From a bacterium (lineage in GTDB: Bacteria; Sumerlaeota; Sumerlaeia; MVZB01), in NCBI GenBank assembly GCA_021372575.1, contig JAJFUE010000037.1, forward strand, positions 1-42,461: a stretch of DNA of 42,461 bases, written 5' to 3'. Shown here piece by piece: positions 6,485 to 40,715 of this stretch. The first letter of the stretch is position 1. Every line of letters begins with the position of its first letter. Below the pieces are notes generated by a model. That model was not told where the DNA came from and searched no databases. It was given only the letters and a program-made list of their open reading frames with translations. Both the position numbers and the translations under genes were made by a program.

Positions 6485-7891
6485 ATGGCAGCGACAGAAT
6501 TTATTGAAAACGACGATTTGATTGTTGCGCGGGCGACGGCGGCGGGGGCGGGCGCGGTGGCGATCGTGCGCATCGATGGCAATGGGGCGGGCGAGCTGAC
6601 GCGGCAATTGTTCCGGCCGCGGGCGGGGCGCGGTCCGGTCGAGCGGCCGCGGCGGATGGTGTTTGGGCAGTGGGTGGAACCGGTGGGCGGCGAAGTTCTG
6701 GACGAGGGGCTGTGCGCGTTTTTCGCCGGGCCGAATTCATACACGGGAAACGATTTGGCGGAGTTTTATTGCCACGGCGGGCCGGTGCCGTCGCGGCGGC
6801 TGATCGAAGCCGCGCTGGCCGGCGGCGCGCGCATGGCCGAGCCGGGCGAGTTCACGCGGCGTGCATTTTTGAATGGCCGCATGGACCTGGCGCAGGCCGA
6901 GGCCGTTGCCGACATCGTCGCCGCGCAGACCGACGAGGCGGCGCGGCTGGCCCGCGCGCAACTTTGCGGGGCGCTTTCCGGGCGCATCGGCAGGCTCATC
7001 GACCAACTGGTCAACGTCGCGGCCGAGATCGAGGCGCGGATCGATTTCCCCGAGGAGGACATCGGCGAGGCCGATCACGATCGGCTGGCGAGCGCGATGG
7101 ACGAAGCCGCCTTGGAGATCGACGGGCTTTTGGCGACCGGCCGGCGCGGAAGGTTGCTGCGCGAGGGGGCGCGCGTGGCGCTTGTCGGGCCGCCCAACGC
7201 CGGGAAATCGAGCCTGCTGAACGCGCTTGCGCGCCGCGAGCGCGCGATCGTCACGCCGCACCCCGGCACGACGCGTGACGTGATCGAATGCACGATCGAC
7301 CTGATGGGGCTGCCGGTGACGCTGATCGACACGGCGGGGCTGCGCGACAGCTCGGATCCCGTGGAGCGGATCGGCATCGAGCGCGCGCGGGGAGAGGTCG
7401 CGTCGGCCGACGTGGTGATTCTGGTTCAGGATTTGACCGATCCCAATCGCGGTGAATGGACGGACGAATCGATCGTCGATCGAACGCCCGACTTGGTTGC
7501 GATGAACAAGGTTGATGCGATTGAATGCGGAATGCGGAGTGCGGAGTGCGGAGTGGAAAATTCATCATTCATCACTCATCATTCATCATTCATTTCGGCT
7601 GTTCGCGGCGACGGCCTGCCGGAGCTTGAGCGGGCGCTTCACGAAAAATTGCTGGCCGGCTCCGGCGGAGGCGACGCGAATCTCGCGGTCAACCTGCGCC
7701 AGGCCGGCCAGCTTTCAAGTGCCGCGGCCGCGCTGGGCCAAGCCCGCGCGTCGTTTGCGGCCGGGGCCGCGAGCGAGCTCGTGATGGTCGATCTGCGCGA
7801 GGGGCTCGAGAGCCTCGGCGCGATTCTCGGCCGCGACACGGGCGAGGCGATTTTGAATCAGATATTCAGCACCTTCTGTCTGGGGAAATAG
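6485..7891 (+). CDS. mnmE: MnmE, tRNA uridine-5-carboxymethylaminomethyl modification GTPase
   Basis: MnmE works with MnmG to modify U34 in the wobble position of several tRNAs. The 468-residue protein has the N-terminal folate-binding domain, a helical domain, an inserted G domain with GPPNAGKSS (235-243), GTTRD, DTAGLRD and NKVD (341-344), and the C-terminal FCLGK with the invariant Cys. Residues 347-369, between NKVD and the G5 SAVRG motif, are encoded by two heptamer repeat arrays (7529-7594) and have no counterpart in ordinary MnmE proteins. The frame stays open across the arrays, so the protein is probably functional. No clear Shine-Dalgarno sequence is visible before the ATG. Confidence 0.95.
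   Translation: MAATEFIENDDLIVARATAAGAGAVAIVRIDGNGAGELTRQLFRPRAGRGPVERPRRMVFGQWVEPVGGEVLDEGLCAFFAGPNSYTGNDLAEFYCHGGPVPSRRLIEAALAGGARMAEPGEFTRRAFLNGRMDLAQAEAVADIVAAQTDEAARLARAQLCGALSGRIGRLIDQLVNVAAEIEARIDFPEEDIGEADHDRLASAMDEAALEIDGLLATGRRGRLLREGARVALVGPPNAGKSSLLNALARRERAIVTPHPGTTRDVIECTIDLMGLPVTLIDTAGLRDSSDPVERIGIERARGEVASADVVILVQDLTDPNRGEWTDESIVDRTPDLVAMNKVDAIECGMRSAECGVENSSFITHHSSFISAVRGDGLPELERALHEKLLAGSGGGDANLAVNLRQAGQLSSAAAALGQARASFAAGAASELVMVDLREGLESLGAILGRDTGEAILNQIFSTFCLGK
7529..7594. repeat. Two adjacent heptamer arrays inside mnmE
   Basis: GGAATGC, GGAGTGC, GGAGTGC and GGAGTGG (7529-7556) are followed by ATTCATC, ATTCATC, ACTCATC, ATTCATC and ATTCATT (7560-7594). The second array is the reverse complement, with one base changed, of the intergenic array at 21251-21284. 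Its total length keeps the mnmE reading frame. Confidence 0.9.
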
Positions 7892-18306: not shown

Positions 18307-21240
18307 TCAGCCGATCCTGCATTCGCGCAATGCGGTTTTCAATCCCGCGCGCGCGCTTGCGCTGATCTGTTCCGGCAGCAACAGCATCTTTAAATTCGGA
18401 AGGTCTCGCAGCTGCGTGACCCCGGCGTCGGTGATCTTGCTGTCCCGTAAATCCAGCGTGCGCAGGCCGGTCAGGCGGGCGAGGTGAGCAAGCTGATCGT
18501 CGCCGATCGCGGCCTGCCGCATGTGAATCGATTGAATGTCATCGGGTTTGAGTTTTGAGAGCGCCGATAAATCGGCCGCACATTTGCGGCTCACGACGAG
18601 CATCAATTCGCTTTTCGGCGGAACGGTCACCTCTCCGCGCGCGGGGCCAAGCTCGGTCCAGTTCCAAACATTCAATCCCCATGGGCGATACATGAGCAAC
18701 CCGATCGATTCGTTCGGGAACGTCACGACGCGCGCCGCGTTCGGTTGCGATTGGGCGACAACCGGCGCGCCCTCGGCTTTCGTGACATTGCATTTCGGCA
18801 ACGCCTGCTTGATTCGCGCAACGGCGGTGTCGCTGATTTGCGACGGCAGAACAAGCGACTTGAGCGCCGCGAGCTTCGCGAGGTGATCGGCGCAACGGTC
18901 GCTCAGCGCGGTTTCGCGGAGGTCGAGGGTCAGAAGTCCGCCCAATCGCGCGCCGTGCTCGAGTTGCACATCGTTCAACTGCGTCCGGCCGAGGAACATC
19001 GATTGAATATCGTTGCCGTCGAGCGCATCGAGGAACGAAAGGTCGCCGGCCGCATCGCGCTCGAGCATGAACAGGACTTCCTGGCCCTGCGGGATTTCGA
19101 CCTCGCCCGCGGCCGGCCCGAGATCCTTCCATGACCAGCCCTTTGCGCCGGCATCGCGGATCTGCAGCTTGCCGACGGCGCGGGGCGGGAACGCAAGCAT
19201 GCGCGAGGAACCATGCGCGTTATGCGGCCGGGCATCCACTCCAAAGCGTTCCTTCAAAATACCCGCGATTTGATTGGCGATCGGTTTCGTGTCGTAGTCG
19301 AGCGATGCTTTGCGCGCGTTTTCGCCAAGCCGCCGGCGCAGTTCGGGGTCGTGCACGAGCTCGAGGATTTTGCCGGCCATCGCCTCCGGATCGACATCGG
19401 GGATGCTGACGCCGCAATCGGTCCCGATGAATTCGCACGCGCCGCCGGCCGACGCGAACGCGCACACCGGGCAGCCGTGGAACGCCGCCTCCATGACGAC
19501 CAGCGGGAACGGATCATCGACCGACGTGACGAGTGCGATGTCCATCGAGTTGAAATATGGATACGGGTTTTCCTGCGGCCCGGGCGCGATGACGCGCTCG
19601 CTGATCCGGCGATGTTTCGCCTCGCCCAGCAGTTCCTCGCGGTTCGGCCCGTGGCCGATCCACATGAAATAAACCGGCCGGTCCTTTTCGTCCTGGATCA
19701 CGCGCTCGGCGATGTCGATGAAATGCCTCCACCCCTTGCGGTCGTCGATGCGGCCGCAGTTGCCGATCACGATCGCGTCCCGTGGAATGCCGAGCGTGCG
19801 GCGGATTTGTTCGCGCGAAACGAGATTGGTTTTCCCGCGCACGTCGTCGAAATCGATCGACTCGTACACGACCTCGATTTTTTCCGTCGGGATATGGTGA
19901 TTCTCGATCAGGTTGCGCCGGACGGCCTGCGAACACGCGATGTAAAGCGCGGGCCGGACGGTGAGCGCCTGATGCCGGGCCTCGTCGAGCGTCTTGAGAT
20001 ACCATTCGAGCTCGTGGACGTGAACGACGACCGGCGCGATCGAGTCGAGATAATCCGTCACGTCGCCGTTGACCGACGTGTTCGAATAAATGAGATCGGG
20101 CGACCAGGCGCGGATGGAATCGCGAAGCTTTTCCTGATGCGGACCCGGTTTCCTGGGCTCGTTCGCCGGCCAGAAAATCTCGGTCTCGCCGAGAGCCTTG
20201 AATTCATCGAGCAGCGTGCCGTTGGGCTCGCGGACGAGAATCCGGCAATCGATTCCATGGTCCGCGCGCAGCCGACGGATCAGTCCCAAGAGCGACATCT
20301 GCGCGCCGAGCCGGCCGACGTCATGCGTAATGAATAATATTTTCGATTTCTTATTGGATATGTTTGCGCGCGCCGGCTTCGCGAACAGCGAAACGAAATC
20401 AGCCTTCTCGAACACATCGAGCTTGCTGTCGAGGCCCGCGTTCAACACCCGCCGCCCGTCTTCTTCAAACGCCTCGCGCGCCTTGCGGTAGCCGGCTTCC
20501 ATGTAATCGACCGGCGGCACGCCGATCACGTCGCCGATCGTGTAATTGTCCTGCGGCACGTGGATGCCGCGAATGAGGTCGTAGTTGTCCCCGGTGATCG
20601 TGATCTTGCACGGCGGATACAGGCGCGGCAGTTCGCCGTAGTTGTGATCGACGCCGATCAGATAGACCGGGTCGCAGCCGAGGTGCCACGCCAGTTGCAG
20701 GCCGATGTACGTCACCGTGCTCGCCAGGTGGACGATGTGCCCGAAATCCTTGGAAAACTGCGGGAATTGCTCGTCCATGAACGCCGCGTCGAGGTTGCGC
20801 ACGTTCATGAAGAACGTGTTCGCGTCCGGCTTGATCGCGTAGGCGTTGTGCAGTCCGAGCAGCTTGACGGGCCCCTTGACATTCGGAATGTCCCTGCGCC
20901 GCAACTCCGTCTGCTCGATGTCTTCGAACAACAAATAATGGGTGTGCCAGCCCCACTGCGCGAAATTCTTGTAGATCGCGTTGCAGCCGATCGTGATTTC
21001 GTTCTTGAGCGGCGAGAGGTCCATGCGGTTGAGGCTCGGGCCGTTGCCGATCACGAAGCAGCGCCGGCCGCGATATTTGTTGCGCCAGCTTTTGATGATC
21101 GCCTTGTAACCGGGCACTTCGCGCAGGCCGCGCAGCGTTGGCACGATGCGGTTGTGATAGCGATACCGCGCCAGCAGCAACCGCAAATATCCAGCAACCC
21201 GTTCATTTTTTGGGAAATTCTTTGTCCAAACAATAGGCAT
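18307..21240 (-). CDS. DUF115-GT4 glycosyltransferase with two C-terminal beta/LRR-like modules
   Basis: This 977-residue fusion has four parts. Residues about 55-270 are a DUF115/MptE-like domain (GNGPSL at 65-70). Residues 298-668 are a GT4 glycosyltransferase (CGRIDDRKGW, and FPLVVMEAAFHGCPV for the donor site). Residues 680-820 and 837-977 are two copies of one module. Each begins with a Phe-Pro segment, a Trp-rich beta part (GWSWKDLGPA; NVWNWTELGPA) and a hydrophobic strand, then a short leucine-rich-like stretch (LTLDLRETALSD; LRTLDLRDSKITD). A single copy ends the Wzt-like ATPase at 24011-25828. It is the last gene of a four-gene glycan operon. The start is supported by TTAGGA, which borders a heptamer array. 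The role is inferred to be surface polysaccharide assembly; the sugar is unknown. Confidence 0.85.
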   Translation of the reverse strand: MPIVWTKNFPKNERVAGYLRLLLARYRYHNRIVPTLRGLREVPGYKAIIKSWRNKYRGRRCFVIGNGPSLNRMDLSPLKNEITIGCNAIYKNFAQWGWHTHYLLFEDIEQTELRRRDIPNVKGPVKLLGLHNAYAIKPDANTFFMNVRNLDAAFMDEQFPQFSKDFGHIVHLASTVTYIGLQLAWHLGCDPVYLIGVDHNYGELPRLYPPCKITITGDNYDLIRGIHVPQDNYTIGDVIGVPPVDYMEAGYRKAREAFEEDGRRVLNAGLDSKLDVFEKADFVSLFAKPARANISNKKSKILFITHDVGRLGAQMSLLGLIRRLRADHGIDCRILVREPNGTLLDEFKALGETEIFWPANEPRKPGPHQEKLRDSIRAWSPDLIYSNTSVNGDVTDYLDSIAPVVVHVHELEWYLKTLDEARHQALTVRPALYIACSQAVRRNLIENHHIPTEKIEVVYESIDFDDVRGKTNLVSREQIRRTLGIPRDAIVIGNCGRIDDRKGWRHFIDIAERVIQDEKDRPVYFMWIGHGPNREELLGEAKHRRISERVIAPGPQENPYPYFNSMDIALVTSVDDPFPLVVMEAAFHGCPVCAFASAGGACEFIGTDCGVSIPDVDPEAMAGKILELVHDPELRRRLGENARKASLDYDTKPIANQIAGILKERFGVDARPHNAHGSSRMLAFPPRAVGKLQIRDAGAKGWSWKDLGPAAGEVEIPQGQEVLFMLERDAAGDLSFLDALDGNDIQSMFLGRTQLNDVQLEHGARLGGLLTLDLRETALSDRCADHLAKLAALKSLVLPSQISDTAVARIKQALPKCNVTKAEGAPVVAQSQPNAARVVTFPNESIGLLMYRPWGLNVWNWTELGPARGEVTVPPKSELMLVVSRKCAADLSALSKLKPDDIQSIHMRQAAIGDDQLAHLARLTGLRTLDLRDSKITDAGVTQLRDLPNLKMLLLPEQISASARAGLKTALRECRIG

Positions 21241-21250
21241 GATGAATCCT

Positions 21251-21284
21251 AATGATGAATGATGAGTGATAAATGATGAATAAT
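21251..21284. repeat. Heptamer array, AATGATG type
   Basis: AATGATG, AATGATG, AGTGATA, AATGATG and AATAATA lie between two genes of the glycan operon, next to the ribosome site of the downstream gene. The array is the reverse complement, with one base changed, of the array inside mnmE (7560-7594). Confidence 0.85.
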
Positions 21285-21294
21285 ATTAAGTCTT

Positions 21295-23988
21295 TTAACC
21301 CTGCATCGGTTTTTTCTTCGCCCAAATGTTGAGGCTGAACGGCCGGCCGGAGTAGGTGAGCGCGCGGCGGCGCGTCTGCCGGCCGAAATGGAAAGACTTT
21401 CCGACCTGCCAGTCGAAGCCCGCACCGTCGAGTATCCTGAAGATGGCCTCGAGCCGGCCGTCGGGCATGCCGGCGCCATGATGATATTCGATGAACATGT
21501 TTTCGACCGCGCCGAGCTTGCCGGCGGCCTCGGCGAGCACGGCGTCCTCCGAGCCCTCGATGTCGAGCTTGAGGAATTGCACCGGTTCGTCAAGGAATCG
21601 GCTGAGCGGCCTGCAATCGACGCGAATCTCATGAAGCTTGTCGCCGAAACCGCGCCGGCGACCCGTGAGCGATCCGGCCATCGGGTAGCTCATCGATTCG
21701 TAGAACACGCTTTCGCCGGGTTCGGCCGCAAGGGCGCACGGCACAATTTCGACGCCGCTCATCCGGTTTTCGCGAACGTTCGACTCGATCAGCGCCTGCA
21801 GCGACGGCACCGGCTCAAACGCGATGATTTTCGAGGCGGGATGTAGCTTTTTGAAATAGTAAATCGCCATGCCGAAATTGGATCCGCAGTCAAGGATGCG
21901 CGGTTCGGCGGCGTCGGTTTCGAAATAATAATCCTCGTCGATCAAGATCTCATTCAACTCGGTCCAGAGCGAGAACCGATCTGTGAACGCGAGGGCGCCG
22001 CCGGCAAGGAACACCTTGTTGTCCTCGCAAATCACGTCGAGCAGGCGCTCGGGGATATCCTCGGTTTTCTTCAACGCCAGCATCGATTCGTGAAGGCGCT
22101 CGGCGAGGCCCGGCCGCGCTTTGTCGATGCAGGGCTCGAGCGCGCGCCAGATGCGGCGGAATTCGGCGTGCGCCTCCATGAGCGCGTCGATCGACTTGCT
22201 TTCGATGATGGCGGGATCGGCCATCAGGTTGCGTACGGCGCCCTCGTTGAGGACGATGCGCCCCATCAGTTTACCGTTTTGCCGAATGAGCCCGATGAGT
22301 TTCGGTTGTGCAAGGATCCGTGCCGAAATCGATTCGTCGGCCATCATGCTTTTTACGGCGCGGTCGTTTGCGAGCAGCTTCTCGAACAACTCCGGATTGC
22401 CGAGGATATGATCGATCGCGCGGTTGCTTGAGAGCAGCTTGCCGAACAGCGATCCGTCCGCGACGATTTTCTCGAGACCGCGGCCATTGGCGATGAATTT
22501 CGCCAGCAGGGCGTCGTTGGCAAGAATCTTGCCGAACGCGCGCTCATTGGATAGGACATGATTCAAGAGCTGATCGTCGCTCAATATTTTCTCGAGCGCG
22601 CGGCCGTTGGAGACGAGCTTCGTGAGCAACACGTCGTCGGCGAGAATTTTTCCCAGGACGCGCTTGTGCGGGATGATGCGCATGAGTAGCTGGTCGTCGG
22701 AAAGGATCTTCTCGAGCGCGCGGCCGTTGGAGACGAGTTTCGTGAGCAGCACGTCGTCGGCGAGAATTTTCCCGAAGACGCGCTCGTGCGAAATCACCCG
22801 CATGAGCAGCTGGTCGTCGGAAAGGATCTTCTCGAGCGTGCGGCCGTTCGTCACGAGTTTCGTGAGCAGTACTTCGTCGGCGATGATCTTGCCCCACACG
22901 CGCTCGTTGGAGATGAGGCGCGTGAGGAACTGGTCGTCGCCGATGATGCGCGTCCATGCGCGCTCGTTCGAAAGCACCTTGAACAGAAGCGATTCGTTCG
23001 CGAGCAGCCGGCCCAGGACCTTCTCGTTCCACAGCAGCTTCAGGACGAGTTCGCCGTCGGCAACCAGGCGTTCAAAAGCCGGTGCGCTTGCGAGAACCGG
23101 CCCGAGCAGTTTTTCGTTATGAATGATCTCGTCGATGCCCGACGTCATGATCCGTTCGAGCAATTGCTTGTCGGCGAGGATTGCGGCCAGTCCTTCATCG
23201 CTCGATGCCAGCTCGAGGAAGAGTTTATGATCGGCTTCAATCAGGCGGCGGATGGGCTTGCTTGCGTAGCAACGCTCGATGACACGCTCGTCGTTCAGGA
23301 TCTCATCGACGATGGCCGGATCCGCGCCGAGCCGCTTGAGCAGCTCGGTTCTCGCCAGCGCCGGCCAGTCGGGCCGGGCCAGCCAGCGATCCATGACGCG
23401 CGGATCGTCAAGCATGCGCTCAACGATGGATTCGTCGGCGAGGAACGATTCGAAGCACGCGGGATGGCAGATCAGACGGCTCAGCAGGTGATCGGCGCGG
23501 ACGATTTTCTCAACCACGCCGTTATGCTCGAAAATCAGCCTGAAAATGGCCTCGTTCCCGGCGGCCCAGGTTTTAAACGATTCCTCGTCGAGCAGCCATT
23601 CGCGCCACTGCGCGTTGGACGCGAGCCTCGCCGCGATGTCCCTGTTCTTCGAAATCACATCGACGACCTGCGAATCGGTGAGCAGGAACCGCTGGACGCG
23701 CGGATTGGTTTGCAGCTGCCGGCGCGCCGGCTCACTCAGGTAAATGCGCTCGCTCAGGAGCGGGTCGTCAAGGATCGCGCCGAGCAGCCGGTCGTCGCCG
23801 ACGAGCGCCATGAAATCGCGCATGAGGGACTGGTCGGCGTTGAGGCGCAGCGGCAGCCGCGGATCGGCGAACAGGTACGGGATGATGCGCTCGTCGATCG
23901 CGATGCGCGCGGTCGCGCGCGCCATCGCCGGATGGAACGAAAGCGCGCGGCCCGCGGTCTTGCGAAGGAAACTGGTGAGTTCGCTCAT
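21295..23988 (-). CDS. FkbM-family methyltransferase with a giant decapeptide-repeat N-terminus
   Basis: Of 897 residues, about 40-600 are tandem 10-residue units with consensus (N/D)(D/E)xxLLxK(I/L)L, such as ADDVLLTKLV, SNGRALEKIL and SDDQLLMRII. From residue 291 to about 595 some 30 units follow each other without a single insertion or deletion. Residues about 690-890 form an FkbM SAM-dependent methyltransferase (ILDCGSNFGMAIYYF, AFEPVPS, FLKLDIEGSED). FkbM enzymes O-methylate sugars or small molecules, and this one sits in a glycan operon. The repeat part is not recognised; it could be an alpha-solenoid measuring or binding the glycan, which is inference. GGAAG precedes the ATG by about 5 bases. 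Part of the repeat is recently duplicated at DNA level. Confidence 0.88.
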   Translation of the reverse strand: MSELTSFLRKTAGRALSFHPAMARATARIAIDERIIPYLFADPRLPLRLNADQSLMRDFMALVGDDRLLGAILDDPLLSERIYLSEPARRQLQTNPRVQRFLLTDSQVVDVISKNRDIAARLASNAQWREWLLDEESFKTWAAGNEAIFRLIFEHNGVVEKIVRADHLLSRLICHPACFESFLADESIVERMLDDPRVMDRWLARPDWPALARTELLKRLGADPAIVDEILNDERVIERCYASKPIRRLIEADHKLFLELASSDEGLAAILADKQLLERIMTSGIDEIIHNEKLLGPVLASAPAFERLVADGELVLKLLWNEKVLGRLLANESLLFKVLSNERAWTRIIGDDQFLTRLISNERVWGKIIADEVLLTKLVTNGRTLEKILSDDQLLMRVISHERVFGKILADDVLLTKLVSNGRALEKILSDDQLLMRIIPHKRVLGKILADDVLLTKLVSNGRALEKILSDDQLLNHVLSNERAFGKILANDALLAKFIANGRGLEKIVADGSLFGKLLSSNRAIDHILGNPELFEKLLANDRAVKSMMADESISARILAQPKLIGLIRQNGKLMGRIVLNEGAVRNLMADPAIIESKSIDALMEAHAEFRRIWRALEPCIDKARPGLAERLHESMLALKKTEDIPERLLDVICEDNKVFLAGGALAFTDRFSLWTELNEILIDEDYYFETDAAEPRILDCGSNFGMAIYYFKKLHPASKIIAFEPVPSLQALIESNVRENRMSGVEIVPCALAAEPGESVFYESMSYPMAGSLTGRRRGFGDKLHEIRVDCRPLSRFLDEPVQFLKLDIEGSEDAVLAEAAGKLGAVENMFIEYHHGAGMPDGRLEAIFRILDGAGFDWQVGKSFHFGRQTRRRALTYSGRPFSLNIWAKKKPMQG
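22471..22950. repeat. 120-bp tandem repeat inside the FkbM gene
   Basis: Four units start at 22471, 22591, 22711 and 22831, exactly 120 bases (40 codons, four decapeptides) apart. The units at 22591 and 22711 agree at about nine bases in ten; the outer ones are more diverged. This points to recent expansion by unequal recombination or slippage. Confidence 0.9.
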
Positions 23989-24010: not shown

Positions 24011-25828
24011 TCATTGAATCATCGTGCAGCCGGGCAACGCTTCTTGCAATCGTTTCATCGCGGCGGGCCCGATTGATTTCGGCAGCGCGAGGCTCTTGAG
24101 CCCGCTCAGCGCGCCCAGCGATTCGACGGCGATCTCGGTAATTTTCGTGTGCCGCAGCTCGAGCGCGCGCAGGCCCGTCAACCGCCGCAGGTGCGCAAGG
24201 TCCGAATCCGAAACCGGCGTGCGGGCAAGGTGAATCCCGAACAGGTCGTCCGCCGCGAGTTTATTCAAGCCGAACAGCCGGCCGGCCCCTTCGCTGCTGA
24301 CGACCAGCAACAGCTCCTTGCCCTTGGGCACGAACACGCGGCCGATCGCCTCGCCGGCGTCTTCCCATTCCCAGACCATTGACCCAGCGGCGCGCATGCG
24401 CAGGCTGCCCATCGAGAACTCCTGCGGGAAATGCAGCGGGCGCACGGAATCGGTCGGGCTCGTCGAGGAAGATTGACGATTGACGATTGACGATTGACGA
24501 TTCTGTTCAGAACTAGCCGCATCGGCCCTGACGCGCTCGGTGACCATCACGCTGTCGGCCGTGCCGTTCATGACCTCGTATGTGTAATCGAAATCGGTGA
24601 GGTGCCACGTGAAGCGCTCGCCGCTCACGACGACGAATTCCTTCACGATGTTGCGCCACAGGTAGCTCTTGCCCTCGTGTACCGGCATGACCAGCACGTA
24701 GTTGCCGGGGTTCAGGTGGCAGTCGGCGATGCGCACGCGGCAGTGCGCCTCGCCGTCGTGGATGTCCTTGACGAGGTCGCCGTTGAGCGTCGAGATCGCG
24801 GTCATCCACAGCCCGTCCTTGCGGATGAACACGAGCGAGACGTTGAGGTCGGTGACGGGCTGGTTGAGCCGGAAGCGGTATTCGATCTCGAGCTCGTCGT
24901 GCGTGCGGACGACATCGGTCTCGCCGCCGGCGGAGCGGAACGAAAACTCAAGATCGGAGATTTTGTCGAACTCGTCGTAGATCGGGCCGTAAAGGCCCTG
25001 TGTCGTGCGGCTTGCCGGCGCGGCCGGCGCGCCGTCCTGCGATTCGTTGAGGCGGCGGACCTCCTCGACCTGCAGGGACTCGAGGTGGTCCATGTAGGCC
25101 TTGGTGACATCGGCAGCCGCGCCGGTCTTGACCAATTTCCCCTTGTCGATCCAGATCGCCTGCTCGCAGACCTGGTTGACGTGCGTGAAGCTGTGCGAGA
25201 CGAGCACGATCGTCGCACCGCGCTTCTTGATCTCGTGCATCTTGACGAAGCACTTGTTCTGGAATGCGTAGTCGCCGACGGAGAGGATCTCGTCGATCAG
25301 CAGGATTTCCGGGTCTAGGTGCACGGCGACCGAAAACCCGAGCCGCGCATACATGCCGGAGCTGTAGGTTGAGACGGGACTGTCGATGAAGTCCTCGAGC
25401 TCGGCGAAGTCGATGATCTCATCGAGGACGGAGAGTGTGCGCGCGCGGCTCATGCCCATGAGCGCCGCGCCGTTCATGATGTTCTCGCGGCCCGAGAGCC
25501 GCGGGCTGAATCCCGCGCCGAGGTTGATCAGCCCCTGGACGCGCCCGTCGATCTGGATCACGCCGGCGTCGGGCTTGATAAGGCCCGCGAGCAGCTTGAG
25601 CATCGTGCTTTTGCCCGAGCCGTTGCGCCCGACCAGCGCGATCGAGTCGCCGGGATTCAGATAAAATGAGATGTCATCGACGGCCCAGAATTCGTCCGGG
25701 CGCAGGCGGTTGGGCGCGCGGCGGCCGGTCAGCTCGCGCATCAGGTCGGCCACCCCGTAATGCCGGTTCGTGTCGGCATGCATCGAATACTTCTTGCGGA
25801 TGTGATCAACAATGACGATTGGCTTCAT
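24011..25828 (-). CDS. Wzt-type polysaccharide ABC transporter ATPase with a beta/LRR-like C-terminal module
   Basis: This 605-residue protein has a nucleotide-binding domain (Walker A GRNGSGKST 67-75, signature YSSGM 155-159, Walker B ILLIDE 175-180) and a Wzt C-terminal carbohydrate-binding domain (about 278-420). A linker containing heptamer-encoded residues (about 441-456) leads to the module shared with the 18307 gene (465-605: MVWEWEDAGEA, LRALELRHTKITE). With a Wzm permease, Wzt proteins export O-antigen-like glycans and recognise the modified chain end. No permease gene lies in this operon; the nearest, at 40719, has its own ATPase. The shared module may link glycosyltransferase and exporter, which is inference. 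Confidence 0.9.
   Translation of the reverse strand: MKPIVIVDHIRKKYSMHADTNRHYGVADLMRELTGRRAPNRLRPDEFWAVDDISFYLNPGDSIALVGRNGSGKSTMLKLLAGLIKPDAGVIQIDGRVQGLINLGAGFSPRLSGRENIMNGAALMGMSRARTLSVLDEIIDFAELEDFIDSPVSTYSSGMYARLGFSVAVHLDPEILLIDEILSVGDYAFQNKCFVKMHEIKKRGATIVLVSHSFTHVNQVCEQAIWIDKGKLVKTGAAADVTKAYMDHLESLQVEEVRRLNESQDGAPAAPASRTTQGLYGPIYDEFDKISDLEFSFRSAGGETDVVRTHDELEIEYRFRLNQPVTDLNVSLVFIRKDGLWMTAISTLNGDLVKDIHDGEAHCRVRIADCHLNPGNYVLVMPVHEGKSYLWRNIVKEFVVVSGERFTWHLTDFDYTYEVMNGTADSVMVTERVRADAASSEQNRQSSIVNRQSSSTSPTDSVRPLHFPQEFSMGSLRMRAAGSMVWEWEDAGEAIGRVFVPKGKELLLVVSSEGAGRLFGLNKLAADDLFGIHLARTPVSDSDLAHLRRLTGLRALELRHTKITEIAVESLGALSGLKSLALPKSIGPAAMKRLQEALPGCTMIQ
24471..24505. repeat. Heptamer array, GATTGAC x4, inside the Wzt-like gene
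   Basis: Four perfect GATTGAC units and a GATTCTG variant fall in the linker between the Wzt glycan-binding domain and the C-terminal module. Read in frame on the coding strand they give the repetitive NRQSSIVNRQSS. Confidence 0.9.
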
Positions 25829-25944: not shown

Positions 25945-27753
25945 CTACCTGCGAATGGCCCGTTCATACTGCGCCATCGACCCGTCCAGCTCCCGCATCA
26001 CGTCGAAAAGTTCTTCTTTTTCGGCGAGTTCGCGCGCTTTTTTCGCGGCCTCGAGCGCCTCTGCGATCCGGCCGTCCGCCTCCAGCGCCAGCGACAGGCT
26101 CTGCCAGTATCGCGCGTGCTCGTCGCGGGGATTCCGAACGGCCCGTTGCGCCAGTTCGACCGCCTTTCTCGGATTCCTGAGCGTTGGGTCCCGCGTCGTC
26201 GCCAGCAGCCACGCATAGCTGCTCAGCACCGCGCTGTCGTTGCATCCCCGGCCGATCGCCCGCTCGCAGAGCTCGGCCGCGTCGTGTTCCTTTCCCTGCG
26301 AGAACAACGCCAGTCCCAGGTTGCACACCGTCTCCCAATCGTTCGGCTCGATGTCGAGCGCCTTGCGGTAGAGATCTTCGGCCTTGTCGAATTGCCGGCG
26401 TTTCAAATGGTCCGAGCCCAGCGCCTGTTTCATGTATGCCGAATGCGGAGCCGTCGCGATCCCGCGTTTGAACAGCGTTGCGGAATCGGAGTAATACGCG
26501 GCCTGCCGCCACGACAAAATCGCGAGGCCGGCCAACAGCGCCGCGACCGCGCACCGCCACCGGATTTTATTCGCCGCGCTGTTTTGAATCATGCGCCCGA
26601 TCGCCGCGCCGGCCAGCATGAGCGGCCCGATGCTCGCGAAGTATTGATAGCGGTCGGCCGCTGGTGAGATTTTCATGAAATTGAAGGGAATCACCCCGAC
26701 GACCGGCGCCAGCGACACGCCGTAGAACAACCAGCAGGCCAGCGGCGCCCGCCCGATTTTGCGCCGCGCCAGCCACAATCCGGCCGTCGCCACAAACACC
26801 AAAACGAGCGGCAGCCAGTTGATCGGCCGCGTCGCGTCCAACGCGAATTTCGGATAGGCGGGCCCCAACCCAAATGGCCATGCCAGCTTTTCGAGGTAAA
26901 GCCAGAGGATCCATCCCGATTGCATGACGCGATCGGTCACGTGTGGGATCGGCCACGGCCTGATGATTTCGCGATGGCTCACCATCCACGCGTCGGCCAG
27001 CCCGATCCCGAGCGTGACCGCGCCGAGCGTGCCGATCCACAACCAGTCGCGCCGCTCGATCCTTCCGCGCCGGTGCCACGCCAGGATGGCGATCGTCCCG
27101 GCAAGCGTCACGGGCGACGATTTGCAGAGCATCGCCGCCGCCGCGACGACGCCCGCCCACGCCGGCCTTTTCCAACCGCCTCGTTCGCCGTCCAAATAAA
27201 GTTCAACGCACACGAGCGACAGCAGAGCCGCAAGCAGGTCCTTGATCGAGATGATCCACGCTACCGCCTCGGCATGGACCGGATGCAGCGCGAACAGGGC
27301 CGCCCCGATTGCAGCCCCGGCCGCGCCGGGCGCCCCGATCCGTCGCGCCAATCTCCAGAGCTGAACCACGACCAGCCCGTGCAGGATGAAATTGAAGATA
27401 TGAAATCCGGCCGGATTGCCCGCCCAGGCGTTCCATTCGATCCACAAGACCGAATACGTCAGCGGCCAGTAATGCTCCTCCTCCGGAATCCCGCCGACGT
27501 TCGTCCAGATTTGCCGCAAGCCGTCAAAACTGTTAAACAGGAAATTCCGCTGAATCGCGAATTCGTCGTCCCAGACGAACTGCCCGTTCAGCGCCGGTGA
27601 ATAGGCCAGCGCCGCCAGCGCAAACAGCGCAGCCGGAACGAGCCATTCGCGCAACTCAAACCGGCGCGGCGGCAATGCGGCTTCGCCCCCGCGTCTGGTT
27701 CTTTCCCGTGAATCCCCGCGCCTTGTTCGTTGTCGTTTCCGTATCACGCTCAT
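25945..27753 (-). CDS. TMTC/GT-C-like membrane glycosyltransferase with C-terminal TPRs
   Basis: This 602-residue protein has a basic N-terminus and about ten or more membrane segments (residues about 37-420). An early loop FVWDDEFAIQRN carries the acidic pair typical of GT-C/TMTC enzymes, and LHPVHAEAVAWI is the TMTC-family hallmark. Soluble tetratricopeptide repeats follow (about 440-590: KALDIEPNDWETVCNLGLAL). GT-C enzymes transfer sugars from lipid-linked donors on the outer face of the membrane. It is the first gene of the minus-strand glycan operon, 116 bases upstream of the Wzt-like gene. The donor and acceptor are unknown. Confidence 0.82.
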   Translation of the reverse strand: MSVIRKRQRTRRGDSRERTRRGGEAALPPRRFELREWLVPAALFALAALAYSPALNGQFVWDDEFAIQRNFLFNSFDGLRQIWTNVGGIPEEEHYWPLTYSVLWIEWNAWAGNPAGFHIFNFILHGLVVVQLWRLARRIGAPGAAGAAIGAALFALHPVHAEAVAWIISIKDLLAALLSLVCVELYLDGERGGWKRPAWAGVVAAAAMLCKSSPVTLAGTIAILAWHRRGRIERRDWLWIGTLGAVTLGIGLADAWMVSHREIIRPWPIPHVTDRVMQSGWILWLYLEKLAWPFGLGPAYPKFALDATRPINWLPLVLVFVATAGLWLARRKIGRAPLACWLFYGVSLAPVVGVIPFNFMKISPAADRYQYFASIGPLMLAGAAIGRMIQNSAANKIRWRCAVAALLAGLAILSWRQAAYYSDSATLFKRGIATAPHSAYMKQALGSDHLKRRQFDKAEDLYRKALDIEPNDWETVCNLGLALFSQGKEHDAAELCERAIGRGCNDSAVLSSYAWLLATTRDPTLRNPRKAVELAQRAVRNPRDEHARYWQSLSLALEADGRIAEALEAAKKARELAEKEELFDVMRELDGSMAQYERAIRR

Positions 27754-30181: not shown

Positions 30182-30234
30182 ACTCGGAATGGGCCGAAGC
30201 CGGCCGGGTGCAGCCACGATCACGTGAGAGCCTG

Positions 30235-30846
30235 ATGATGATTCCCCGCCTGATTGCCATTACACCGCCCGATTTCCTGGCGAAACCCGATGCTCCCGAT
30301 ATTCTCGATCGTGCGCTGGCCGCGGGCCTTCCGGCCGTCATGCTGCGCGACAAATCCGATACGGCCGATTCGGATCTCGCCGTGCTGGCCGCGTGGTTGC
30401 GGACGTTGACGCGTTCCCGCGGCGCACAGCTGATCGTCAACCGCCGCCTTGGGCTGGCGCGCGCGATCGATGCGGACGGGATTCATCTCGGCGCGGACGG
30501 GCCTTCGATCGCCGAAGTGCGCGCCGCCATGACAAACGCGATGATTGGTTGGTCGGCGCATTCGCCCACTGAGGCGATGCGCGCTTTCGATGAGGGCGCC
30601 GATTACGTGATGCTCAGCCCGATTTACGCGACGCCGGACAAGGGCCGTCCGCTCGGCCTGGCACCGCTGAGGCAATTGACGGGCATGACCACCCGCCCCG
30701 TGATCGCGCTCGGCGGCATCGGGCCTGAATCGGTCTCCGAAGTGATTGCCGCCGGCGCCTACGGCATTGCGGCCATCCGAAGCGTCTTCGGCCAGATCGA
30801 CCCCGCCCCTGTCGTAAAGCTAATGTTAAAGAATATGAATAGTTAG
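30235..30846 (+). CDS. ThiE/TenI-like protein
   Basis: This 203-residue TIM-barrel protein resembles thiamine phosphate synthase and the thiazole tautomerase TenI (DADGIHLGADG, WSAHSPTEAM, DYVMLSPIYATPDKGRPLG, ALGGIGPESV). The usual INDR of ThiE reads IVNRR here, so the aspartate of that motif is missing. A complete ThiE domain exists in the fusion at 34615, so this copy is probably a paralogue with another role, perhaps TenI-like, though the TenI catalytic histidine segment is not evident. GAGAG precedes tandem ATGs at 30235 and 30238. It converges on thiH with a 5-base gap. Confidence 0.75.
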   Translation: MMIPRLIAITPPDFLAKPDAPDILDRALAAGLPAVMLRDKSDTADSDLAVLAAWLRTLTRSRGAQLIVNRRLGLARAIDADGIHLGADGPSIAEVRAAMTNAMIGWSAHSPTEAMRAFDEGADYVMLSPIYATPDKGRPLGLAPLRQLTGMTTRPVIALGGIGPESVSEVIAAGAYGIAAIRSVFGQIDPAPVVKLMLKNMNS

Positions 30847-34511: not shown

Positions 34512-34541
34512 ATGTTAGTTGGTTTTCATCGTAATCGTCAA
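34512..34541 (-). promoter_or_regulatory. Probable promoter of the thiamine operon
   Basis: On the minus strand TTGACG (34541-34536) is followed after 18 bases by TAACAT (34517-34512). The start would fall at the 5' edge of the TPP aptamer, which supports the assignment. Confidence 0.55.
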
Positions 34542-34614
34542 GGATCATGGGACTTATGGGAGAATTGAATGTTGTGCACATTTACGATTACAATCTGCGC
34601 GAGGTACAGGTGGC

Positions 34615-35637
34615 ATGATGGAATATCGGATGATCGATGCGAATCTGAACCGGCTTGGCGAAGGGCTGCGCGTGATCGAGGATTTCTGCCGGTTCGGGCT
34701 GAACGACACGGCGCTTTCGGCGCGCATCAAGCGGCTGCGCCACGATGCGGGCGCGCTGCGGCGCGTTTTCCCGCCCGAGGTGCTCGACAGGCGCGACAGC
34801 GCGGGCGACGTCGGCCGCATCCGCGTCAAGGAGCCGATGCAGCGCGCCGACCGGCTCGCGATTCTGGGCGCCTCGTTCGGCCGCGTCCAGGAAGCGATCC
34901 GCGTCCTCGAGGAAGTGGCGAAGCTCGATCGCCCGCAGGCCGCCGCGCAGGCCAAGGCGATGCGCTACGAGGCTTACGAGCTCGAGCGCATGGTGGTCCC
35001 GCTGTTCGACCGCGCCGAAAAAGCAGCGCGGCTCAAGGGGCTTTATTTAATTCTAACGGACCCCGTGGTCGGTTATGAAAAGCTTGCCGAGATCGCCGTC
35101 GCGCAGAAGGTGGGCGCGATCCAACTCCGTGCCAAGCGCATGGATGGCGGGCCGCTGCTCGAACTTGCGCGCCGCGTCCGCGAAATCACGCGCGGCTCGC
35201 AGACGCTTTTTTTCATCAACGACCGCCCCGACATCGCGCAACTCGTCGAGGCCGACGGCGTGCATCTGGGGCAAACCGATTTGAGCGTGACCGACGCGCG
35301 CGCGATCGTCGGCGGCCGGATGCTGATCGGCAAATCGACGCACAACCGGAAACAACTCGCCGCGGCGCTGAAGGAAAAGCCCGATTACGTCGGCATCGGC
35401 CCGGTGTTCGAGACCGGATCGAAGGCCGACCACGCGCCGGTGCTCGGGATCGAGAAAGCGTCAGCCATGCTCCGTGCGGCACGCGGCATTCCGGCTGTCG
35501 CGGTTGGCGGAATCAATGATCGCAATCTAATAGACTTGTTCGGCGCCGGATTCAATTGCTACGCGCTGATCGCGGCGGTCTGCGGCGCAGCCGATCCAAA
35601 AAAAGAGATCAGGAAATTTATGAGAAAACAGAAATAG
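34615..35637 (+). CDS. thiE: ThiD2-ThiE fusion: HMP-phosphate kinase-type domain plus thiamine phosphate synthase
   Basis: The 340-residue protein has an N-terminal domain (1-137) opening RMIDANLNRLGEGLRVIEDFCRF, matching the ThiD2 family proposed to replace ThiD as HMP-P kinase. It is followed by a complete ThiE barrel (142-340: LYLILTD, INDRPDIA, GVHLGQTD, IGKSTHN, YVGIGPVFETGSK, AVGGIND). ThiE joins HMP-PP to thiazole phosphate. Both activities on one chain would let it carry HMP-P to thiamine phosphate. It diverges from the riboswitch-controlled operon and has no riboswitch of its own that I can see. Tandem ATGs at 34615 and 34618 both have GAGG or AGGTGG upstream. Confidence 0.9.
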   Translation: MMEYRMIDANLNRLGEGLRVIEDFCRFGLNDTALSARIKRLRHDAGALRRVFPPEVLDRRDSAGDVGRIRVKEPMQRADRLAILGASFGRVQEAIRVLEEVAKLDRPQAAAQAKAMRYEAYELERMVVPLFDRAEKAARLKGLYLILTDPVVGYEKLAEIAVAQKVGAIQLRAKRMDGGPLLELARRVREITRGSQTLFFINDRPDIAQLVEADGVHLGQTDLSVTDARAIVGGRMLIGKSTHNRKQLAAALKEKPDYVGIGPVFETGSKADHAPVLGIEKASAMLRAARGIPAVAVGGINDRNLIDLFGAGFNCYALIAAVCGAADPKKEIRKFMRKQK

Positions 35638-40525: not shown

Positions 40526-40715
40526 TAGTGCTGAGTGCTGAGTCCTGAGTGCCAAACGCGGAAATATTAGCGGCGTGCAGCATGAACTCAGGACTCAGCA
40601 CTCAGGACTCAGGACTCAGGACTCAAACAGTGGCGACCGATAAGTCATTTGGATAGAATGCACGCGTCTTGCTCGGGTTCAGGACTCAGCACTCAGGACC
40701 ACGGACTAAGGACTT
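40526..40715. repeat. Facing heptamer arrays, AGTGCTG/AGTCCTG family
   Basis: The left array (40526-40553) has AGTGCTG, AGTGCTG, AGTCCTG and AGTGCC. The complementary array lies at 40583-40624 (GGACTCA and GCACTCA units), and a third run at 40679-40715 decays into the AAGGA that serves as ribosome site of wzm. The left and middle arrays could form a long hairpin. The same family follows secDF at 5284. Confidence 0.85.

Follow-up and report, generated by a model that had tools for sequence, protein, structure and literature searches.

A decapeptide repeat array fused to an FkbM methyltransferase beside wzt: a tentative spacer for glycan capping

Results

A repeat-bearing methyltransferase gene directly follows wzt

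The window, the whole 42,461-nucleotide stretch of DNA analysed here, carries on its minus strand a gene for a decapeptide-solenoid FkbM methyltransferase (21295..23988; an 897-aa ORF; TIGR01444; PF05050). The gene starts with an ATG at 23988, just 5' of which lies a ribosome-site-like stretch, GGCAGGAAG, and it is separated by 22 bp from the stop codon of wzt. This wzt gene (24011..25828, minus) encodes an ABC transporter ATPase with a Wzt_C domain (PF00005, 72.3 bits; PF14524, 42.7 bits) and an extra C-terminal LRR-like domain. Upstream of wzt is a gene for a membrane protein with PMT_2 and TPR domains (25945..27753, minus). On the other side, 54 bp downstream of the array gene, an MptE-like (DUF115) region is joined to a GT4 glycosyltransferase and two LRR-like domains in a single protein (18307..21240, minus).

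The 897-aa protein can be divided into four parts, all encoded on the minus strand. Residues 1-30 (23899..23988) form a basic helical segment, as judged by predicted helices and net charge. The decapeptide array, delimited by the register profile and the structure models, occupies residues about 59-616 with 52 complete units (22139..23814). A linker of residues 601-664 (21998..22188), modelled as a long helix followed by further helices (598-620, 628-637 and 645-653 in the AlphaFold2 model) and alignable in relatives, leads from the array to the enzyme. The FkbM domain itself lies at residues about 698-858 (21415..21897) and scores above both curated cut-offs (TIGR01444, 82.6 bits with a cut-off of 37.7; PF05050, 49.1 bits with a cut-off of 22.7). 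Both of its motifs are intact, motif I as ILDCGSNFGMA and the FkbM (KxDIEG) motif as KLDIEGSE. Its probable activity is methylation of a sugar chain of the cell surface.

At the N-terminus, helices are predicted at residues 4-17 and 19-25 with low pLDDT. The best N-terminal 18-mer has a net charge of +4 in the window protein and of +4 to +6 across all five relatives described below. All five proteins have basic helical N-termini, with moderate hydrophobic moment and low model confidence, and membrane contact by this helix is possible.

The repeat has a strict ten-residue period

The decapeptide repeat is real, and its combination with an FkbM domain is an unusual architecture. Over residues 31-600, the hydropathy autocorrelation at lag 10 was 0.56, compared with a maximum of 0.16 in 10,000 shuffles. 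A register-tracking profile, built from five related proteins, scored 502 on the window protein and at most 8 on 20 shuffles. This profile assigned 574 residues to the repeat and counted 52 complete units, in agreement with a preliminary description of the DNA, which had reported about fifty tandem decapeptides fused to an FkbM methyltransferase. The register breaks at residues 211, 285 and 598, so that residues 285-597 (~31 units) run without interruption; the ten-residue period with some 30 units in register noted earlier is thus borne out. Units in the N-terminal part (residues about 31-210) are more diverged than the central ones.

The unit consensus is [ND]-[EDP]-x-[LAV]-L-[EG]-[KR]-[IL]-L-[AS], with hydrophobic residues at positions 4, 5, 8 and 9, Asp or Asn at position 1 in 38 of the 52 units and Lys or Arg at position 7 in 33. 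The consensus first proposed, (N/D)(D/E)xxLLxK(I/L)L, agrees with ours at its start; after position 3, it is shifted by one residue. This is the residue pattern of a short amphipathic helix that carries a cap. The net charge of the array is close to zero. Alternate units resemble each other more closely than neighbours do (BLOSUM score of 10.2 at lag 2 versus 5.5 at lag 1), so that the structural unit is a 20-residue helix pair.

Structure prediction points to an elongated solenoid

AlphaFold2, run on the full-length protein with a five-row alignment, gave a mean pLDDT of 72, with values of 71-85 over most of residues 250-570, and modelled every decapeptide as a single helix; model confidence was low in the first 240 residues. 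Since methyltransferases crowded the fold search with the full-length model, we also modelled the core alone (residues 291-590), using nine array segments as input. This core model reached a pLDDT of 82 and a pTM of 0.65, with 30 helices for 30 units. The elongated solenoid proposed previously is therefore what structure prediction returns. The predicted spacer is not a coiled coil: it consists of separate nine-residue helices with a break every ten residues, and Pro is frequent at position 2.

The array is found in four genomes of one order

We searched for relatives using one genome per species. The array-FkbM family consists of five proteins in four genomes of one order: the array was present in 4 of the 39 genomes of the class and was not found in the other 35, and these four genomes are the order as sampled. 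A search of 386 genomes over a wider range gave one hit outside the order (in genome G166; see below).

The five proteins differ in length and completeness. The genes of the window protein (P0001, 52 units) and of P0013 (91 units; G001 contig C43, L030:2772-6680, minus) are both complete, the latter from start codon to stop. P0012 (96 units; G001 contig C277) and P0010 (71 units; G002) each meet a contig end inside the methyltransferase, after the array. For P0011 (G003), the contig ends within the array, so that the count of 42 units is a minimum and an enzyme domain would lie beyond the contig end. These numbers come from draft assemblies, in which repeats may collapse or break, and contig ends cut three of the five proteins.

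In the paralogue P0013, the FkbM motif has decayed (DIEGSE to RVPAGE) while 91 units stay, and this protein may lack catalytic activity.

Unit sequence and number mostly vary within a constant fold and register

Between the window protein and its G002 relative, linker and methyltransferase are 44% identical. The order of their units, on the other hand, was not better than shuffled, with 222 of 300 unit-pair shuffles reaching the observed score. This test took the best ordered match over ten-unit stretches and compared it with shuffled unit pairs; pairs were used because shuffling single units destroys the odd-even alternation. Eight of the ten protein pairs were without strong order (at least 14 of 300 shuffles reached the observed score), and order was kept in two, P0001-P0011 (0/300) and P0001-P0012 (2/300). 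Given these two ordered pairs, part of the array centre may be under sequence constraint or may have been homogenised.

Array length also differs, with 52 versus 91 units in the two complete genes, and arrays lengthen block by block, by 40 to 60 residues at a time. In the window, a four-unit block is duplicated with a 120-bp period (22568..22940, minus; 3.1 copies, 83% match; identified by Tandem Repeats Finder and pairwise block differences), and in G002 a block of 180 bp is duplicated with 11 differences. The hydrophobic positions are kept across 352 units. In most comparisons, then, fold and register are kept while unit sequence and number change. As unit order is mostly unconserved, these results favour a spacer over a sequence-specific binding surface, although the two ordered pairs call for caution.

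The closest likeness is to phage tail proteins

No Pfam model reached its cut-off on the array, and TPR, ARM, HEAT, PPR and pentapeptide models were not among the matches listed. The weak Pfam matches were UBQLN1 and STI1-HOP_DP (best E 7.7e-5), and on the 897-aa protein UBQLN1 fell below its cut-off (20.8-21.7 bits versus 27). Both of these domains likewise have short amphipathic helices that start with Asn/Asp-Pro; they are compact domains rather than long arrays, and wherever a cut-off was shown their matches lay under it.

When compared with solved proteins, the array profile matched one at E=9e-10, namely 7qlr, the receptor-binding protein of C. difficile phage CDHS-1. A Foldseek search with the core model as query found the same protein at E=3.6e-5 and no other match below 0.001. 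The phage protein itself has a ten-residue period (autocorrelation 0.33-0.36), and it has in common with the array this period, helical units and a detectable sequence relation. It differs in being a phage tail protein with Asn/Ser/Thr-rich units, an interrupted array and no enzyme, and the fold match has a TM-score of only 0.45 of the query. In a viral library, the array best matched a repeat-containing phage phiH capsid protein, at E=3.9e-5, and a tail fiber protein, at E=3.3e-3, and PHROGs gave a weak tail-fibre match; a phage tblastn with the central array as query gave none. The likeness to phage proteins may reflect either descent or convergence on a short-helix solenoid.

Alpha-solenoids of the ARM, PUF and MO25 types, whose units have about 34-42 residues, have a similar superhelical stacking of helices and gave weak fold matches (E above 0.005) but no sequence match to the array. 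A literature search for an FkbM protein with a solenoid, or for a decapeptide alpha-solenoid, returned nothing relevant. The initial statement that no common repeat family with such a period and consensus is known therefore stands with respect to Pfam, where no family reached its cut-off, and is not quite accurate with respect to solved structures, because 7qlr has a helical decapeptide period. A ten-residue helical repeat common to phage tail proteins and a cellular enzyme constitutes a class unnamed in Pfam. The methyltransferase domain has a more ordinary relative: a stand-alone FkbM protein of 284 aa in the same genome is 38% identical to it and is without the repeat array.

Look-alikes arise in wrong reading frames

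A plasmid tblastn with the central array as query returned 12 records, further Staphylococcus records and one Streptococcus record among them; those that we inspected, from S. lugdunensis, Mycoplasmopsis, Mycetohabitans, Sulfitobacter and Alloyangia, are not relatives. In S. lugdunensis, the match falls on an annotated hypothetical CDS of the plasmid (L071:3040-4842), which reads the opposite strand of a serine-rich repeat frame; that frame has 45% Ser and adjoins accessory-Sec genes. We rejected the match as an antisense artefact; the CDS looks antisense to a serine-rich repeat adhesin gene and is a probable mis-annotation. The Mycoplasmopsis match is a non-coding frame of a lipoprotein gene whose product repeats the decapeptide QKDPKAPQSG. 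For Mycetohabitans, the strand opposite the match carries an annotated autotransporter gene, which has a ten-residue repeat as well. The Sulfitobacter and Alloyangia proteins have Gly/Asp-rich repeats without the charged helix pattern. The Sulfitobacter plasmid genes (L069:5137-8277 and L070:4320-7262) are near type I secretion genes, and the L069 protein is built from the Gly-rich decapeptide GDDGLVGGLL. The G166 hit, from the genome search above, is a frame antisense to a Gln/Pro-rich decapeptide gene.

Repeats of 30 bases thus often mimic a helix-like decapeptide in the wrong frame. We trust the frame of the window array because it is fused in-frame to a conserved methyltransferase in several genera.

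Wzt accompanies the array

The array gene directly follows a wzt gene with Wzt_C in three genera (the window, G002 and G001 contig C277). In G002 the gene order is wzm, wzt, array gene, and G001 contig C277 carries, just ahead of the array gene, the end of a wzt that encodes this C-terminal domain too. Wzt is 60% identical between the window and G002, and the window Wzt_C domain has 54-62% identity in G001, G002 and G003. Among the 39 genomes of the class, this Wzt_C domain was found in exactly the four array genomes and, at E<=1e-5, in none of the other 35; since those four are the sampled order, this co-occurrence is confounded with phylogeny. In G003, neither Wzt_C nor wzm-wzt is on the contig of the array, where a related MptE-like gene runs divergently from the array gene.

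In the window, a wzm partner is not adjacent to the array-linked wzt. A second, different wzm/wzt pair is located at the contig end (40719-41615 and 41626-42459, plus), where its wzt runs off the window.

Discussion

In ABC-transporter-dependent glycan systems, a coiled-coil ruler carries the terminator at its distal end and so keeps it apart from the polymerase, and the length of this ruler affects chain size (PMC11231755). Terminated chains are then recognised by a glycan-binding module of Wzt (PMC3482155). We tentatively favour the view that the window protein could be a glycan-capping methyltransferase coupled to an ABC transporter, with a solenoid that keeps the active site at a distance from the membrane, much like the coiled coil of WbdD. 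It is possible, if rather doubtful, that the solenoid is a new kind of chain-length ruler, an alpha-solenoid of ten-residue helices, adjustable by blocks, that replaces the WbdD coiled coil and times FkbM capping of an ABC-exported polysaccharide. The wzt adjacency, the varying array length and the mostly unconserved unit order point to such a ruler indirectly.

In this scheme, a surface glycan would be made in the cytoplasm and exported by Wzm/Wzt, the methyltransferase capping or marking it beforehand. The N-terminal basic helix would keep the protein close to the glycosyltransferases at the inner membrane, and the decapeptide solenoid would act as a rigid spacer with the FkbM domain at its far end. 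Only a chain that has grown as far as the FkbM domain would be methylated at its free end. The Wzt C-terminal domain would then read this methyl mark, and export of the chain would follow. Membrane contact, glycan substrate, chain capping, recognition by Wzt_C and ruler function are all steps that we infer.

The resemblance to WbdD-type terminators (E. coli O9a; K. pneumoniae O3, O5, O7) lies in a methyltransferase that ends a long extended helical region and in a gene that adjoins an ABC transporter whose Wzt has a glycan-binding domain. The window protein differs in having discrete ten-residue helices rather than a coiled coil, an FkbM-type domain, the enzyme at the C-terminus instead of the N-terminus, and no kinase domain that we could find.

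Several observations count against the capping-ruler reading. FkbM enzymes also methylate internal sugars and small molecules. The wzm gene is non-adjacent in the window, and in G003 wzm-wzt is on another contig. The Wzt_C co-occurrence is confounded with phylogeny, and two of ten protein pairs keep some unit order. The N-terminal model is of low confidence, and P0013 keeps its 91 units despite a decayed FkbM motif. If the ruler reading is true, bacteria are not limited to a single protein design for gauging the growth of a sugar chain, and the present design has units that can be counted (52 and 91 in the two complete genes), so that the relation of length to chain size could be tested unit by unit.

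A related idea, that the array is a scaffold holding the growing glycan, found no favour in our results: the array carries almost no net charge, the order of its units drifts for the most part, and there is no obvious conserved surface motif beyond the helix-forming positions and salt-bridge residues. Protein binding, which is the usual role of alpha-solenoids, is a stronger contender, although we regard it as somewhat unlikely. The solenoid would then be a docking platform whose surface binds the transporter or glycosyltransferases (for instance the adjacent MptE-like/GT4 protein) and draws the methyltransferase into a multi-enzyme complex, and its binding sites would matter more than its length. 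Consistent with this, the neighbours have an extra LRR-like domain in common (once in Wzt, twice in the MptE-like/GT4 protein), unit order is partly retained in the central region for two of the ten protein pairs, and the P0013 array has been kept although the methyltransferase motif decayed. However, unit order does not clearly outscore shuffled order for eight of the ten pairs, and we found no unit-specific surface residue beyond the helix-start and salt-bridge positions.

It is improbable that the enzyme instead decorates protein glycans, for example on flagellin, through an MptE-like (Maf-type) pathway, with the array as an arm reaching to an extended protein substrate. An MptE-like gene is indeed directly downstream in the window and divergent in G003, and the genome has four flagellin genes; yet the window genes that we examined included none identified as flagellar, and it is wzt, not a flagellin gene, that is the array's constant neighbour. 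Least credible is that a helix-forming repeat, perhaps taken over from a phage tail-fibre gene, expanded neutrally or selfishly and lacks any function of its own. By fold and by profile, the array is indeed nearest to phage receptor-binding and tail proteins, and blocks duplicate readily, but the array is present in all four genomes of the order, its reading frame and ten-residue register hold over hundreds of residues despite sequence divergence, and the hydrophobic positions are kept in 352 units.

Other features of the window

The extra domain on Wzt (24011-24448, minus) has ~145 residues and ends in LRR-like units. The same domain is found twice on the MptE-like/GT4 protein (18316-18732 and 18784-19203, minus) and recurs in a 3051-aa frame and elsewhere in the genome. 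Short tandem arrays with seven-base units are located at 7526-7593, 21239-21281, 24471-24502 and 40586-40625; one of these lies inside the coding sequence of wzt, and another in the interval from the array gene to the next one. Finally, two thiamine-phosphate-synthase-like genes (30208-30846 and 34519-35637, plus) lie near thiG and a radical-SAM/BATS gene.
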